This document shows positions 2,526-7,972 of a stretch of DNA of 50,469 nucleotides, in pieces. A program made the translations under genes and the position numbers. Under the pieces are notes generated by a model, which did not search any database, was not told the DNA's origin, and saw only the letters and a list, made by a program, of their open reading frames with translations. The DNA is from a virus. Position 1 is the stretch's first letter, and each line of letters opens with the position of its first letter. The stretch is taken from the IMG/VR virus record IMGVR_UViG_3300030406_000364, positions 1 to 50,469 of that record, one strand, 5' to 3'.

Positions 2526-2954
2526 TTATGTACTATATTTAGTTAAATTAAAAGTAGGATCTAAAAATTTAGGATCTTGTACTTTCATTATTACTTGATC
2601 ATCATACAATAAAATCATCTTAACATTTTTATATTGTATCTTTTGACCAGCATGTTTAGCATAACAAACATAATCTCCTAATTGACACCAAGGTCCTTTA
2701 GGAAATTTTTCTTTATCAGCATAAGCAAGTTCACCTATTTTTAAAACCTTACCTATAGTTGTTAAATACGACATATCGTCTTTGGTTGAATTAGGTAGTA
2801 ATATACCACCTTTAGTTTTTTCTTTTATTGATACAGGTCTTACGAGTACATGAAAACCTGGAAGTTCAGGTAAGACATCTGGAGTAGATTCATCTTCTTC
2901 TTCTGTTATCCACATGTCATTCTTAATTGAATTACCTAAATGTACCTGTTGCAT
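2526..2954 (-). CDS. GroES-like co-chaperonin (Cpn10 family)
   Basis: A 142-residue protein with a GroES-type core. PGFHVLVRP (32-40) begins the barrel. A mobile-loop-like segment follows at about 43-62 (KTKGGILLP), where ILL at 51-53 matches the hydrophobic tripeptide that docks on GroEL. Then come IGKVLKIGE (67-75), LGDYVCYAK (92-100) and LLYDDQVIMKV (115-125). It has an extra N-terminal tail of about 30 residues and a short C-terminal extension, so it is longer than bacterial GroES (about 97 residues), as T4 Gp31 is. It probably replaces host GroES on GroEL to fold the capsid protein. It sits directly upstream of the scaffold. Its start overlaps the previous stop (TAATG). No GroEL gene is in the window. 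Confidence 0.85.
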   Translation of the reverse strand: MQQVHLGNSIKNDMWITEEEDESTPDVLPELPGFHVLVRPVSIKEKTKGGILLPNSTKDDMSYLTTIGKVLKIGELAYADKEKFPKGPWCQLGDYVCYAKHAGQKIQYKNVKMILLYDDQVIMKVQDPKFLDPTFNLTKYST

Positions 2955-3148
2955 TAGTCATCCTCTTCTTCGTATAATCTTTTTTTAACGATCTCTGTTA
3001 GTTTATTTCTGGACCATTCAATTCCATAAATATTACCAACAAGTTGACGATAATGGGCAAAGTTATCTGCCTGCCCATCACTTACATTATTTCTTAATTT
3101 ATTGAGTTCGTTATTATATTCACTAACGACCTCATTCCAAATATCCAT
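2954..3148 (-). CDS. small conserved head-operon protein, unknown function
   Basis: A 64-residue soluble, helical protein, beginning MDIWNEVVSEY and containing GQADNFAHYRQLVGNIYGIEW. A pattern of this kind (aspartate, tyrosine, then LVG.I.G.E) recurs in tiny proteins between portal and capsid genes of marine podoviruses. The ATG at 3148 follows the PqqA-like stop by three bases and its own stop overlaps the co-chaperonin start, so it is translated within a coupled chain. No function can be assigned. Confidence 0.6.
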   Translation of the reverse strand: MDIWNEVVSEYNNELNKLRNNVSDGQADNFAHYRQLVGNIYGIEWSRNKLTEIVKKRLYEEEDD

Positions 3149-3151
3149 GTA

Positions 3152-3226
3152 TTAGATTTCTGCACAAGCGTAGCAGTTAATTTCTAATCCAACAGATACT
3201 TCTTTAATAATTGGTGATTTCCACAT
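3152..3226 (-). CDS. pqqA: PqqA-like coenzyme PQQ precursor peptide
   Basis: A 24-residue ORF. It matches the spacing of the PqqA family: M-W, then W-x2-P (W2, P5), P-x3-E (E9), E-x3-G (G13), G-x-E (E15), E-x3-Y (Y19) and a Y-x2-A-E ending (A22, E23). E15 and Y19 correspond to the Glu and Tyr that PqqE cross-links to build pyrroloquinoline quinone; the methylotroph peptide has the same framework. The start overlaps the previous stop as TAATG, and the next gene starts three bases after its stop, so it is embedded in a coupled head operon and not in stray sequence. No pqqB, C, D or E is in the window, so a host pathway would have to mature it. Translation and function are inferred; the motif match is direct. 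Confidence 0.75.
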   Translation of the reverse strand: MWKSPIIKEVSVGLEINCYACAEI

Positions 3227-3432
3227 TATCTTTTACCTTTAGTTGGTGAAGGATACTTCCAAGAAGAATCTTCACGTTGATTTAACACACCTTTTTTAGG
3301 TCTACTACCATAGTCACTTTGTGACATTTTAGTAAAGTCACCATACATACCACCATCTCCATTTGGAACATGAGTTGGGTATCCATTAGTCACACCTTTT
3401 TTAACAGGATATGCTTTATTCCCTATTGGCAT
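3226..3432 (-). CDS. small basic Gly-rich protein, unknown function
   Basis: A 68-residue basic protein rich in Gly, Lys, Pro and Tyr (GNKAYPVKKGVTNGYPTHVP near the N-terminus, SWKYPSPTKGKR at the end). It has no membrane segment and looks largely disordered. Its start overlaps the portal stop by 17 bases, with a GGAG site inside the portal gene, and its stop overlaps the PqqA-like start. It may be a minor virion or DNA-binding protein, but nothing in the sequence settles this. Confidence 0.55.
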   Translation of the reverse strand: MPIGNKAYPVKKGVTNGYPTHVPNGDGGMYGDFTKMSQSDYGSRPKKGVLNQREDSSWKYPSPTKGKR

Positions 3433-5971
3433 TATTTGCTCCTTTCATTTCTTCTTTTAATAAATCTGTAATAACATCAATAAGTTTAAAACTTCTTTCT
3501 CTGTCATCCAGATTCTCCATACTAGCTACTTTTTCTAAAGCATCTATACGAATTTTTTCCATATCTATAGCATTCTTTTCTTCTGCTAAAGTTGTCTTTG
3601 TTAATAAGTCTAAAGCTTTCATAGTTTCTTTTGAAGCTCTATCAAGATCTGCTTTCTCTTTTTTCAATACAGCATCTTGACCAGATTTACCTGCTTGTAC
3701 CATTAACTCTGCTTCTTCTAATTCTAATCTTTGTGCATCTAATGCAGAGTCTGCAGAATGTTTAGCCATAGTTGCTTGTAATTTTTGTTTTTCTAATTCT
3801 ACTTTTGCTTGCTCTAATGCAACCATTTGTTGTTCAGGTGATTGAGCTTGTCCCATTTGATTAGCATTTAATACTTGTTGAGCTGCAGTAGCCATAGCCA
3901 TTTCAGCAACTTGAGGATTCTGTTGTTGATCTGGTGGTAGTTGTTCCATTGTAGCTCTTGCCATACCATTCATTTGTTCTTGATATTTTAATACAGAATG
4001 TTCTTGTATGTTTGCTTCTAGTATTGGTTTTAATCTCGCCATTATAGGATTAGCACCATTCTGTGGATCTTGTAAATACATCATCTTTACTTGTATATGT
4101 GAATCATGGTTCTGTCCTGGAAATGCTGCAATAGGTATACCTTTAGTTGCAGCCATTATATCAGATACAGGATCTAATTTTTGTGGCTCTTTCTTTGGTG
4201 GAAGTATTTCTTCCATATTAGGCATATTAGCAGAATTTAATATTGTTCTATTTAATGCTTCAAGATTAAACATACCAGGAGGTGATTGCTGTGCCATTTG
4301 TAATGCCATTTGTGCAATCATCATCCTATGTGCATTTGATGGAATGTTAGGATCTGATACTGGTATCACATCTACTCTACCATCAAAGTCTTGTTTTAAT
4401 ACACTTTTCTCAGCAAATGGTACTTCATATGGATACTCTGAAGGTAGATAATCATAATTTATCTGTGCAAGTATTTTAAATTCATCTCTTTGAGATTTGT
4501 GTAATCTCTTATGAATAGCAGAGAAGAACTTGCTAGACGCTTCTAGTAATGCCATTGTTGTACCCACAGGTCCATAAGATGCTGCATCAGAAACAATTTG
4601 TTCTGTAGAGTCAGCAAACTTTTGACCTGTTTGAGTTATGAATTGAAGCATATTATATAGGGTAGAGGAAGGCTCTTTATAGGGGAGAGAGACAATAGCC
4701 TTGTTAAGATCTTGCCCTGTGGCTTCAACTTCTTTAAACTCACCTGGTGATATAGGATCGTTGTCACCAACAATTCTTACACCCTTTGCTTTGAATCCTC
4801 CTGGTAAGTTTGCGAATTGACCTGCATCCACTAAACTTCTCATGGCTGCAGTAGCAGTCATAGTTAAGTTTCCTAAAAAGTGCATGAGACCAAATCCATA
4901 GAAACTAAAGCCTGGTACGAATCTGTAATGAACAAAGTGAGACACTTTCTCTTGATTCTTATCATCCTTCTTATAGTTTCTACGAATGCTTAAAATTTGT
5001 TGTGATTTTTCTTCTACTGTTACAATATAAGGAAGAGCATAGTCTTCTTCTATTTCTAAATAACAATGTTGTTCTAGTAATGTATATTGTGGATCATTTG
5101 TTGCTGTAGGAGACAAACCAATAATTGTATCCATTTTTTCTGAAAAAGATGTAGGTTGTGGATTTGTTGCTTCTGGTAATTCTACATCTCTATAGATTCC
5201 TGATCGTATATCTTTTGCTAACTCAACAGGACTTCTATATATAACATGTGTATATCTATCTGCTTTACGTAAATTAGATGCATAATAAGAAACATAGAAT
5301 TGATCAATAGGAACAAATTCAGATACTGGTCTTTTTAAATTAGCATCATAATAAACTTTTTTAAATGCTGATCCAATCAAAGGGAGGTGGAACAGCATTC
5401 TTTCAAACTCATCAAAGTATTCAGGCATTTGCTCTGTTGTTTGATAGTTCATAAACTCTTGTACACGATTAGCTTGATCTTCTCTTTCAGGAGTAGACTT
5501 ACCTAATATCTGTGTTTTAACTGGACCTGCTGGTGGAAATAATTCTTGTATAGCTTTTGATTGAAACTTAACAGCAGATTCTATTAACATAGGATGTACT
5601 GCTGTACATGCACCTTCAAATGGTTCTGCAGTTTCTTCTATCTTTAAACCTAGAAGATCAAAACCTTTTTCAAACATTGCTTCCCATTCAGAACGAGATT
5701 CTTTGTCTGCAGTATAATTATCTATAACATCTGCTGCAATAATTTGTTGATCTTCTTCTTCTACTGTATCTGTAAGATCTCCATACCATTCTTGTATAGA
5801 TTGTTCAGCTTCCATTTCTATGCTTGTTTGTGAAAAGTCTACAGTAATACCACCATCATCTTCCATTTCAAATGTTGGTGCACCTTCCATCATATCTTCA
5901 GGTGTAGGCATTTGTACTACGTTTGTAACTTCTTCTCTAATTTTTTCAAAAGGATTTTTTTCTGTTGCCAT
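3416..5971 (-). CDS. portal protein
   Basis: An 851-residue protein directly downstream of the terminase group. The segment around residues 120-160 (HPMLIESAVKFQSKAIQELF, then FPPAGPVKTQILG) is characteristic of podovirus-type portal proteins that form the dodecameric ring through which DNA is packaged and ejected. The central region carries the expected alpha/beta stem-wing-like sequence. The last 170 residues are a long Ala/Glu/Lys/Gln coiled coil, matching the portal barrel. Its length suits the P22/T7-like portals with barrel extensions. The start overlaps the preceding stop (TAATG at 5971). It should sit at one capsid vertex and bind TerL during packaging. Confidence 0.85.
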   Translation of the reverse strand: MATEKNPFEKIREEVTNVVQMPTPEDMMEGAPTFEMEDDGGITVDFSQTSIEMEAEQSIQEWYGDLTDTVEEEDQQIIAADVIDNYTADKESRSEWEAMFEKGFDLLGLKIEETAEPFEGACTAVHPMLIESAVKFQSKAIQELFPPAGPVKTQILGKSTPEREDQANRVQEFMNYQTTEQMPEYFDEFERMLFHLPLIGSAFKKVYYDANLKRPVSEFVPIDQFYVSYYASNLRKADRYTHVIYRSPVELAKDIRSGIYRDVELPEATNPQPTSFSEKMDTIIGLSPTATNDPQYTLLEQHCYLEIEEDYALPYIVTVEEKSQQILSIRRNYKKDDKNQEKVSHFVHYRFVPGFSFYGFGLMHFLGNLTMTATAAMRSLVDAGQFANLPGGFKAKGVRIVGDNDPISPGEFKEVEATGQDLNKAIVSLPYKEPSSTLYNMLQFITQTGQKFADSTEQIVSDAASYGPVGTTMALLEASSKFFSAIHKRLHKSQRDEFKILAQINYDYLPSEYPYEVPFAEKSVLKQDFDGRVDVIPVSDPNIPSNAHRMMIAQMALQMAQQSPPGMFNLEALNRTILNSANMPNMEEILPPKKEPQKLDPVSDIMAATKGIPIAAFPGQNHDSHIQVKMMYLQDPQNGANPIMARLKPILEANIQEHSVLKYQEQMNGMARATMEQLPPDQQQNPQVAEMAMATAAQQVLNANQMGQAQSPEQQMVALEQAKVELEKQKLQATMAKHSADSALDAQRLELEEAELMVQAGKSGQDAVLKKEKADLDRASKETMKALDLLTKTTLAEEKNAIDMEKIRIDALEKVASMENLDDRERSFKLIDVITDLLKEEMKGANNANRE

Positions 5972-6352: not shown

Positions 6353-6381
6353 ATTATAACACTAAACTCTCCAGTATGCAA
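6353..6381 (-). promoter_or_regulatory. promoter-like site at the end of TerL
   Basis: On the minus strand, TTGCAT (6381-6376), a 17-base spacer and a perfect TATAAT (6358-6353), preceded by TTTAGTGT as at the scaffold promoter. It overlaps the TerL stop and would drive the small ORFs, portal and head genes. The -35 element matches consensus at only the TTG. Confidence 0.45.
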
Positions 6382-7972
6382 GTTTTTTTTCTTTTGGTTC
6401 ATCTTCCCACTCTGGATCTTCAGGATGTGATAGATGCCAAGACTCTTTTACATAGTGTATAGCCATTGTCATTGCGTCAACTTGGTCATCATGTGCAGCA
6501 TTTGGAAAGCGTAACATTTCTTCTAATAAGTCTTCTGACCACTTTTTATTTTTAGGAAACCATACTTTACCTGCTTCCATCATAGGAGTAGCTGCATATA
6601 CTCTGGATACCTTATCTCTATCAGGTAAATATTCTAACACAGGTATACCAGCTCTACGCATATCTTGTATTAATGATTGTCCTGATGCTTTCTTTTCTAC
6701 CATACAAACATCAGGTCTATGTTCTTGATATAACATTTGTGTCATACGTCTTAATTCTGGATATTCAAATCTTCCTTTAATGTTTCCTAATAAAATAAGA
6801 TTACCTTGAAAAGATTCTATACCTTCTTCACTTTCATCATACATAGAGAATATACCCCATGTCTGAATAACACTATAATCTGCTGTTGTCTTGGTAGAAA
6901 ACGCTGTATCATACGTTTGTAGTATAAAATCACATGGTGGTGGCTCACCATATTCCCACCATCTTAACCATTTCTTTTTTATTAACCCACCTTCATCTGG
7001 TGTGGGATCTTGCATATATAAGGCATTCCAGTATCGTGCACCATTTGAAGCTTTAATCTCATGTTCATCTACACGTAGTACTTCATCTGGTTTCCATTCA
7101 GGAAAATAACTAGAACCTACTGGAAGATCTAGTAATTCTGCTGCATCTTCATCAAGCCATGCTGGAATACGTACAACTTCCCAAGGAATAACATCATAAT
7201 CCCCCATATTCTCTTCTTGTTTTAGTAACCATCCACAGAGATCATCATAATGATAACGAGTATTAATGATGAGTATAGAACCATTAGGCATTATACGTGT
7301 TCTTAATCCTGCTGGATACCATTCCTTAACGTATCTTCTGCCTGCTTCAGAGTATGAGTCCTCTTCTGACATAACATCATCAAGGATCGCAATGTGTGCA
7401 CCTCTTCCTGCAATCTGGGATCGTACTCCAGCAGCATAGTATTGTCCACCTTTGTTTGTTTTCCATTTTCCTGCTGCTCGTACATCTGAACGTAAGGACA
7501 CTCCTTTGAAAACATTTTGAAATTCTTCAGCATTAACCAAATCTCTGACAGAACGACCAAAATCGCTTGACAACTGGTCACTATGGGAAACAGTAAGTAT
7601 TTCATGTTCTGGATTCCTTCCAATATACCATGCAGGAAACAATTTAGAACAAATAACAGACTTTGATGAACGTGGTGGTAGAAAGACCATAAGTCTTTTT
7701 ATCTCACCAGACTCTAATTGACGTAGTTTCTCTGATAAAACCTCTATATGCTTACCCATTTTAAAGTCTGAAACAAGCATTGGAGCCATTTGTTTAACAA
7801 ATGTAAGAAAATCTCCTTTAGAATCCTGTTGAACTTTGTGGGAAACAAGTAATTGTAGGTTTAAGAGAGCTTCAAATTGTGATGGAGTCTCTATAGTCTC
7901 TATAGTATCTGTGGTTTCTATGATTTTGTATCCTTTGTTGTATGTTTTTATATATTTTAATAAGAAAAACAA
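6362..7972 (-). CDS. terminase large subunit (ATPase and nuclease)
   Basis: A 536-residue packaging motor. The ATPase part has a Walker A at about 98-106 (LPPRSSKS, a variant with Ser where Gly is usual), Walker B IAILDDV (195-201) and a coupling motif INTRYH (236-241). The C-terminal RNase H-like nuclease shows acidic residues at D355 (TYDTAFS), E426 (MVEKKASG) and D495/D496 (AAHDDQVDAM), as in T4 Gp17-type terminases. It cuts concatemers and pumps DNA through the portal. The first 30 residues come from low-complexity repeated codons (TIETIE) and have no ribosome binding site, so the true start may be internal. It is the first gene behind the strong promoter at 8028-8057. The matching small subunit is 22 kb away on the other strand. 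Confidence 0.92.
   Translation of the reverse strand: MFFLLKYIKTYNKGYKIIETTDTIETIETPSQFEALLNLQLLVSHKVQQDSKGDFLTFVKQMAPMLVSDFKMGKHIEVLSEKLRQLESGEIKRLMVFLPPRSSKSVICSKLFPAWYIGRNPEHEILTVSHSDQLSSDFGRSVRDLVNAEEFQNVFKGVSLRSDVRAAGKWKTNKGGQYYAAGVRSQIAGRGAHIAILDDVMSEEDSYSEAGRRYVKEWYPAGLRTRIMPNGSILIINTRYHYDDLCGWLLKQEENMGDYDVIPWEVVRIPAWLDEDAAELLDLPVGSSYFPEWKPDEVLRVDEHEIKASNGARYWNALYMQDPTPDEGGLIKKKWLRWWEYGEPPPCDFILQTYDTAFSTKTTADYSVIQTWGIFSMYDESEEGIESFQGNLILLGNIKGRFEYPELRRMTQMLYQEHRPDVCMVEKKASGQSLIQDMRRAGIPVLEYLPDRDKVSRVYAATPMMEAGKVWFPKNKKWSEDLLEEMLRFPNAAHDDQVDAMTMAIHYVKESWHLSHPEDPEWEDEPKEKKLAYWRV

Follow-up and report, generated by a model that had tools for sequence, protein, structure and literature searches.

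Hundreds of aquatic phages carry a tiny gene, mostly unannotated, for PqqA, the precursor peptide of the cofactor PQQ. One of these phages is the source of the window, the whole stretch of 50,469 nucleotides analysed here, where pqqA, a metabolic gene of host type, lies among portal, terminase and GroES-like genes of a true viral genome. With good confidence, the phage is proposed to supply the consumed PqqA precursor to the PQQ enzymes of its host during infection. The best explanation of the sequence data is that phages acquired pqqA from PQQ-making bacteria and that it is a real gene, translated from predicted signals.

The window gene encodes the 24-aa peptide MWKSPIIKEVSVGLEINCYACAEI and occupies positions 3152..3226 of the minus strand, stop included (ATG at 3226-3224, 24 codons, TAA stop). 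The earlier note on this DNA had recognised the motif spacing of PqqA in the frame, and every motif position that it listed was found in the peptide. The PF08042 profile matched MWKSPIIKEVSVGLEINCYACAEI at E 2.2e-5 with 24.8 bits, above the curated cut-off of 21.1, which bears out the identity proposed in that note. The equivalog model TIGR02107 also matched (E 1.1e-6, 28.4 bits; cut-off 20). Neither profile found a match in any of 14 control genomes, and the PHROGs collection held no family matching the peptide. The whole 58,140-bp source virus record contains one PqqA match. The Glu-x3-Tyr pair that is cross-linked by PqqE is present as E15 and Y19. Residues W2, P5 and G13 are also present and invariant among the compared 24-aa viral copies, an invariance that is not an independent test because the extraction motif itself demanded W, P and G. 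A Shine-Dalgarno-like AAAGG is located 5′ of the ATG, at 3236..3240 of the minus strand. Together with conservation in relatives, the profile matches confirm, at the level of sequence, that the frame is a genuine PqqA gene of a marine phage.

The gene is part of a late minus-strand operon with the order TerL, 90-aa gene, portal, 68-aa gene, pqqA, 64-aa gene and GroES-like co-chaperonin. The terminase large subunit (TerL, phrog_38; identified by profile matches) spans 6362..7972, its start codon being uncertain, and the portal protein (phrog_1216; PHROGs match and relatives) spans 3416..5971. The conserved 68-aa gene (cluster c5, 3226..3432) is upstream of pqqA and flanks the insertion point; the AAAGG motif falls within its 3′ end. 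Its stop shares one base with the pqqA start in the sequence TAATG. The conserved 64-aa gene downstream (cluster c0, 2954..3148) starts at 3148, 3 bases past the pqqA stop. Both junctions are as the earlier note had described them. The co-chaperonin (Cpn10) follows at 2526..2954 (PF00166, 8.1e-11; phrog_3188, 5.8e-17). Elsewhere in the window, the phage encodes an A-type Fe-S carrier (PF01521; 32870-33205, minus strand) and an HSP20 protein (PF00011; 24557-24973, plus strand). It is a speculation that radical SAM enzymes, PqqE among them, could in principle be helped by the Fe-S carrier.

Relatives of the phage were gathered by the portal protein, the peptide not being used as a criterion. An intact PqqA was found downstream of the portal in 25 relatives with portals 78-100% identical to that of the window, and no broken copy was seen among the portal-found relatives. 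One relative (L013, portal 85%) lacks pqqA and has the 64-aa gene directly after the 68-aa gene, forming an empty site, while four others (L027-L030) are missing both pqqA and the 68-aa gene. At 39 more distant loci with a complete region (portal 61-73%), pqqA was not found at that site. The alignment comprised 26 portal-found copies, including that of the window, which reduce to 19 different nucleotide sequences and 13 different peptides. Across the 19 unique sequences, again with the window's included, pS was 0.47 and pN 0.099, giving a pN/pS of 0.21 and indicating purifying selection. The invariant positions were W2, P5, K8, E9, the run V12-G13-L14-E15-I16-N17-C18-Y19, C21, A22 and E23. The constraint on E15 and Y19 is tested free of search bias only by this portal-found set, the beta-type set described below having been retrieved with E and Y fixed. 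Two checks proposed in the earlier note thus came out in its favour: the frame is intact in related phages with W2, P5, E15 and Y19 invariant in the portal-found copies, and the substitution pattern is of the coding type (pN/pS of about 0.2). As judged from these alignments, pqqA is kept by selection in the virus.

The gene extends well beyond this family. The IMG/VR collection was scanned with degenerate DNA patterns for two types of peptide, the alpha type, EINCYx(C/S)AE, and the beta/gamma type, GFE(V/I)TMY. The alpha-type pattern gave at least 120 matches, nearly all of those listed reading as a PqqA of 24-27 aa. At least 120 matches were also obtained with the beta/gamma-type pattern, and the W..P spacing was present in all 120 of those listed. 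The window peptide belongs to the alpha type (EINCY); the second viral type is GFEVTMY. A Shine-Dalgarno-like motif precedes 97.9% of the distinct alpha-type and 100% of the distinct beta-type viral copies listed, compared with 9.4% of random ATGs. Outside the searched core, the pN/pS of the beta type was 0.19 among the matches listed. The matches listed fall into 15 alpha and 24 beta gene-neighbourhood groups, about 39 together, and include podo-, sipho- and T4-like phages; these groups were drawn from common flanking genes and are rough and threshold-dependent, some singletons being short contigs.

Within the window phage family, pqqA is located either downstream of the portal or between TerL and the portal (L087, L122, L156, L158 and L176). 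Among the matches listed, other settings include the vicinity of TerS, of a T4 gp59-type helicase loader (phrog_269) and of a gp5-type baseplate hub (phrog_430), and positions in other phages include replication modules and T4-like genomes. The late, structural placement had been called odd in the earlier note, an argument that loses weight because the position of pqqA varies so widely across phages. Various enzymes neighbour the gene in particular groups. A redoxin (AhpC/TSA, PF08534) gene is found immediately 5′ of pqqA at five loci (L102, L115, L160, L188 and L194), its place being taken by a 2OG-Fe(II) oxygenase at two (L139 and L182). At L114 and L190, the neighbours of pqqA include a protein resembling class II tRNA synthetases (asparagine synthetase A-like) and the alpha subunit of a ring-hydroxylating dioxygenase (PF00848). 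At L082, L093 and L131 it is near a membrane protein resembling fatty acid desaturases and alkane monooxygenases (PF00487) and a second membrane protein with weak similarity to PHO4; an oxygenase that makes an alcohol next to pqqA at these three loci would be of interest.

Cultured phages carry the gene as well. The 50,697 annotated GenBank phage records of INPHARED were searched by tblastn with PqqA peptides. The beta-type query recovered nine Methylophilales/Methylophilaceae isolate genomes (P19250A, Venkman EXVC282S, MEP301, MEP401, MEP402 and four Melnitz), a count and not a rate, as the presence of MEP431-434 and Venkman EXVC038S in the collection is unconfirmed. The gene may be near-universal among the Methylophilales phages recovered here. 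Members of the Zobellviridae and Kyanoviridae are among the cultured carriers. In the genomes read (P19250A, Venkman, MEP301, MEP401 and Melnitz-1), the ORF is intact and has a Shine-Dalgarno site. It is annotated as pqqA in none of the nine, being hidden from annotation because it is only 23-25 codons long. There is no annotated feature at the site in P19250A, Venkman, MEP301, MEP401 and MEP402, and in the Melnitz genomes a hypothetical protein overlaps the gene, on the opposite strand in Melnitz-1. In the latter (L441; MZ577095.1, 74848-74943), gene _151 runs antisense over pqqA just upstream of a tRNA-Leu and is likely a wrong annotation. The papers on MEP301, MEP401/402 and Melnitz name no pqq gene. 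A phage contig from the spring water of Manatee Spring also carries pqqA, again not annotated as such.

One further match, in Acinetobacter phage MD-2021a (L442, CAKLQF020000010.1), was rejected as bacterial contamination: besides ppk, its contig has pqqA-pqqB-pqqC-pqqD with a radical SAM gene after them. No match was obtained in INPHARED with alpha-type peptides by tblastn, and the Pseudomonas-type, Methylobacterium-type and alpha-type queries added no further phage from that collection. The collection also includes many phages that infect Pseudomonas, Klebsiella or Acinetobacter, which make PQQ as well, and no credible pqqA was found in them; any benefit must therefore be specific to some hosts. 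Where hosts are known, pqqA in the GenBank phage collection is confined to phages of methylotrophs.

Partner enzymes of PqqA were sought in the viral records too. Neither PqqE nor PqqD was found in the 58-kb record of the window phage, and among 50 alpha-type viral records there was no PqqE above the cut-off and no PQQ_2 dehydrogenase. Two weak PqqE matches in alpha-type records were rejected as a different radical SAM/SPASM protein. One of 50 mostly beta-type viral records has a PQQ_2 dehydrogenase: the 72-kb record G102 (locus L356, 34406-35671) encodes a PQQ_2 dehydrogenase of 628 aa in addition to its beta-type pqqA, and in this it resembles a Lake Baikal virus with PqqA plus methanol dehydrogenase.

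Cells with a matching peptide possess the missing enzymes. The alpha-type pattern was found in 68 stretches of GTDB genomes, nearly all from Alphaproteobacteria. Sixteen streamlined marine genomes with a matching PqqA were followed, of 1.0-1.7 Mb and with a GC content of about 28-33% in the loci read. PqqE scored above the equivalog cut-off in 15 of the 16, and was present in 24 of 28 genomes of the wider GTDB family. Operons of the form pqqA-B-C-D-E are visible in the matching cells, with parts of PqqB, PqqC and PqqD confirmed. The earlier note had asked whether candidate hosts encode pqqBCDE; a full pathway is seen in the cells that match by peptide and are putative hosts. The matching cells also carry quinoproteins of 550-590 aa from the TIGR03075 family of PQQ alcohol dehydrogenases, a link to PQQ dehydrogenases made through genomes tied to the viruses by peptide alone; one of four quinoproteins scanned was above the cut-off of that subfamily and three were below it.

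A second, stand-alone pqqA is present off the operon in four of the cell genomes (L200, L207, L210 and L264), flanked by LysR-type and MFS transporter genes or located at a contig end after the latter. The viral peptides MWKSPVVKEVAVGLEINCYACAEI and MWKSPIVKEVAVGLEINCYACAEI are identical to cell ones, and two viral peptides equal the stand-alone copies exactly. The window pqqA is closest to a stand-alone copy, that of L200, with 88.9% nucleotide identity. The putative host of the window phage is suggested by the pqqA gene alone. By portal (36-40% identity), the nearest cultured relatives infect SAR11 and Roseobacter. A portal relative (42%) was found in one of the 28 genomes of the candidate host family, on a 7.65-kb contig with no pqqA in the locus read; as a sign of an infected cell it is weak and possibly a binning artefact.

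In PQQ synthesis, PqqA is first bound by PqqD; PqqE, a radical SAM enzyme, then joins the Glu to the Tyr, and the cross-linked peptide is trimmed to PQQ, at a cost of one PqqA per cofactor. Host PqqD would bind the peptide made by the phage, host PqqE would link its Glu15 to Tyr19, and the PqqB, PqqC and proteases of the host would complete the conversion to PQQ; MWTKPSATEMRFGFEVTMYVMNK is named beside MWKSPIIKEVSVGLEINCYACAEI as a candidate PqqD-PqqE substrate. Because PqqA is consumed stoichiometrically and the enzymes are reusable, the peptide would be the part to run short after host transcription halts. As transcription shut-off would spare the enzymes and end the PqqA supply, pqqA alone would be the minimal remedy, and at 75 bp it is the part that costs a phage least. 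With additional PQQ, periplasmic PQQ-dependent dehydrogenases of the methanol/alcohol dehydrogenase type would stay loaded, and substrate oxidation would go on supplying electrons and ATP for phage production. The published growth medium of the OM43 strain H5P1 includes PQQ from the outset, and this may hide such an effect. We infer expression of the gene in infection, its processing by host enzymes, an effect on PQQ and a benefit to the phage.

The literature supports the PqqA peptide as an adjustable input of PQQ synthesis. One methylotroph has been described as having five pqqA genes, of which three stand alone, and the authors regard other Pqq proteins as possibly reusable (PMC9851590). 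The second, stand-alone pqqA of the candidate hosts likewise suggests a role of gene dosage. According to the same article, purified PqqA added to a Gluconobacter extract gave 70-80% conversion to PQQ (Wang 2021), and single-gene overexpression of pqqA is cited as increasing PQQ in G. oxydans (Wang 2016, via PMC7936290). It is also rather probable, if less so than supply itself, that phages of PQQ-dependent bacteria share a general ‘consumable-only’ takeover, in which only the precursor peptide is carried and the maturation enzymes are left to the host.

Supply to a host pqq pathway was one of the functions put forward in the earlier note, and it is clearly favoured: some viral peptides equal cellular ones exactly, the window phage has neither PqqD nor PqqE, candidate hosts have the full pathway, and the cultured carriers grow on methylotrophs. 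The same note had also considered that the peptide competes with or mimics host PqqA. Phages often inhibit host functions, and a decoy occupying PqqD/PqqE could lower PQQ or divert the radical SAM enzyme; a substrate mimic would retain binding residues too, so that the alignments fit supply and competition alike. However, the Glu and Tyr that react are retained beyond the PqqD-binding parts, as is the whole core. Loss of E15 or Y19 would be expected in some decoy lineages and occurs in none of the 26 portal-found copies. Several viral peptides match cellular ones residue for residue and so should be substrates, and competitive inhibition is considered quite improbable. Modification by host PqqD/PqqE for another use, with PQQ as antioxidant or signal or with a different product, is unlikely in a similar sense. 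It would fit the redoxin gene adjoining pqqA in one viral group, as for redox protection, and the Fe-S carrier and HSP20 of the window phage, but the methylotrophs infected by the cultured carriers depend on PQQ for their central enzyme, and a PQQ_2 dehydrogenase in one of the 50 mostly beta-type records and the methanol dehydrogenase with PqqA of the Baikal phage also point to the dehydrogenases.

The remaining readings deny the gene a function or its existence. Small host genes could be captured repeatedly as selfish or neutral passengers with no role in infection, and both the widely differing positions among phages and the close relatives without pqqA (L013 and L027-L030) are compatible with this. 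Purifying selection, ribosome binding sites in nearly all copies and the independent occurrence of the gene across about 39 neighbourhood groups nevertheless make it very improbable, and it is already largely refuted. An ORF of 24 codons is short enough to arise by chance, and the MD-2021a match really is a bacterial contig, yet a chance ORF or misassembled bacterial DNA has next to no probability in view of the family scores, the conserved and fixed phage locus and the isolate phage genomes with pqqA; for the window locus it is refuted. Precursor supply thus stands as the preferred reading.

PQQ-dependent oxidation of methanol and other alcohols is a major flow of carbon and energy in the sea and lakes. 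If precursor supply is true, phages influence methanol turnover through a 75-bp gene that is missed by standard gene calling. The gene is also a suggested signature tying uncultured phages to PQQ-dependent hosts, and ribosomal precursor peptides are worth seeking in phage genomes as auxiliary genes. Should the consumable-only strategy hold, pqqA would represent an auxiliary gene class defined by substrate consumption and not by catalysis.

The window peptide shares with cellular PqqA (PF08042/TIGR02107) its length, W-x2-P, G-x-E-x3-Y and A-E, and passes both curated models; it differs in being phage-borne and placed between virion genes, with no PqqD or PqqE found in the phage. A functional parallel is psbA of cyanophages, by which the phage replaces a damaged protein subunit (D1) of a host energy pathway. 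In both cases the phage brings the host component that an energy pathway exhausts soonest, although a damaged subunit is replaced there and a peptide is consumed for a cofactor here. Viral pqqA has been reported before, in Lake Baikal and in reservoir sediment, so the gene itself is not new. The Lake Baikal virus VP_266, which encodes PqqA and methanol dehydrogenase, was proposed to raise PQQ in a methylotroph host (PMC7678222). It likewise has a viral pqqA, but is one population with its own dehydrogenase, whereas the present phages carry the precursor only, in many lineages, with a peptide of alphaproteobacterial type and with cultured members among them. In the portions consulted of a study of viral contigs from reservoir sediment, pqqA, pqqE and pqqD are listed as phosphorus AMGs and read as phosphate solubilisation, viral pqqA being named and its peptide, spread and isolates not analysed (PMC13188868). 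The text of a survey of ocean viral AMGs contains no pqq, and no earlier report of the breadth, the precursor-only form or the presence in cultured methylophages was found in the open-licence literature. Set against these systems, three features appear new: how widely pqqA is spread, its precursor-only form and its occurrence in cultured phages.
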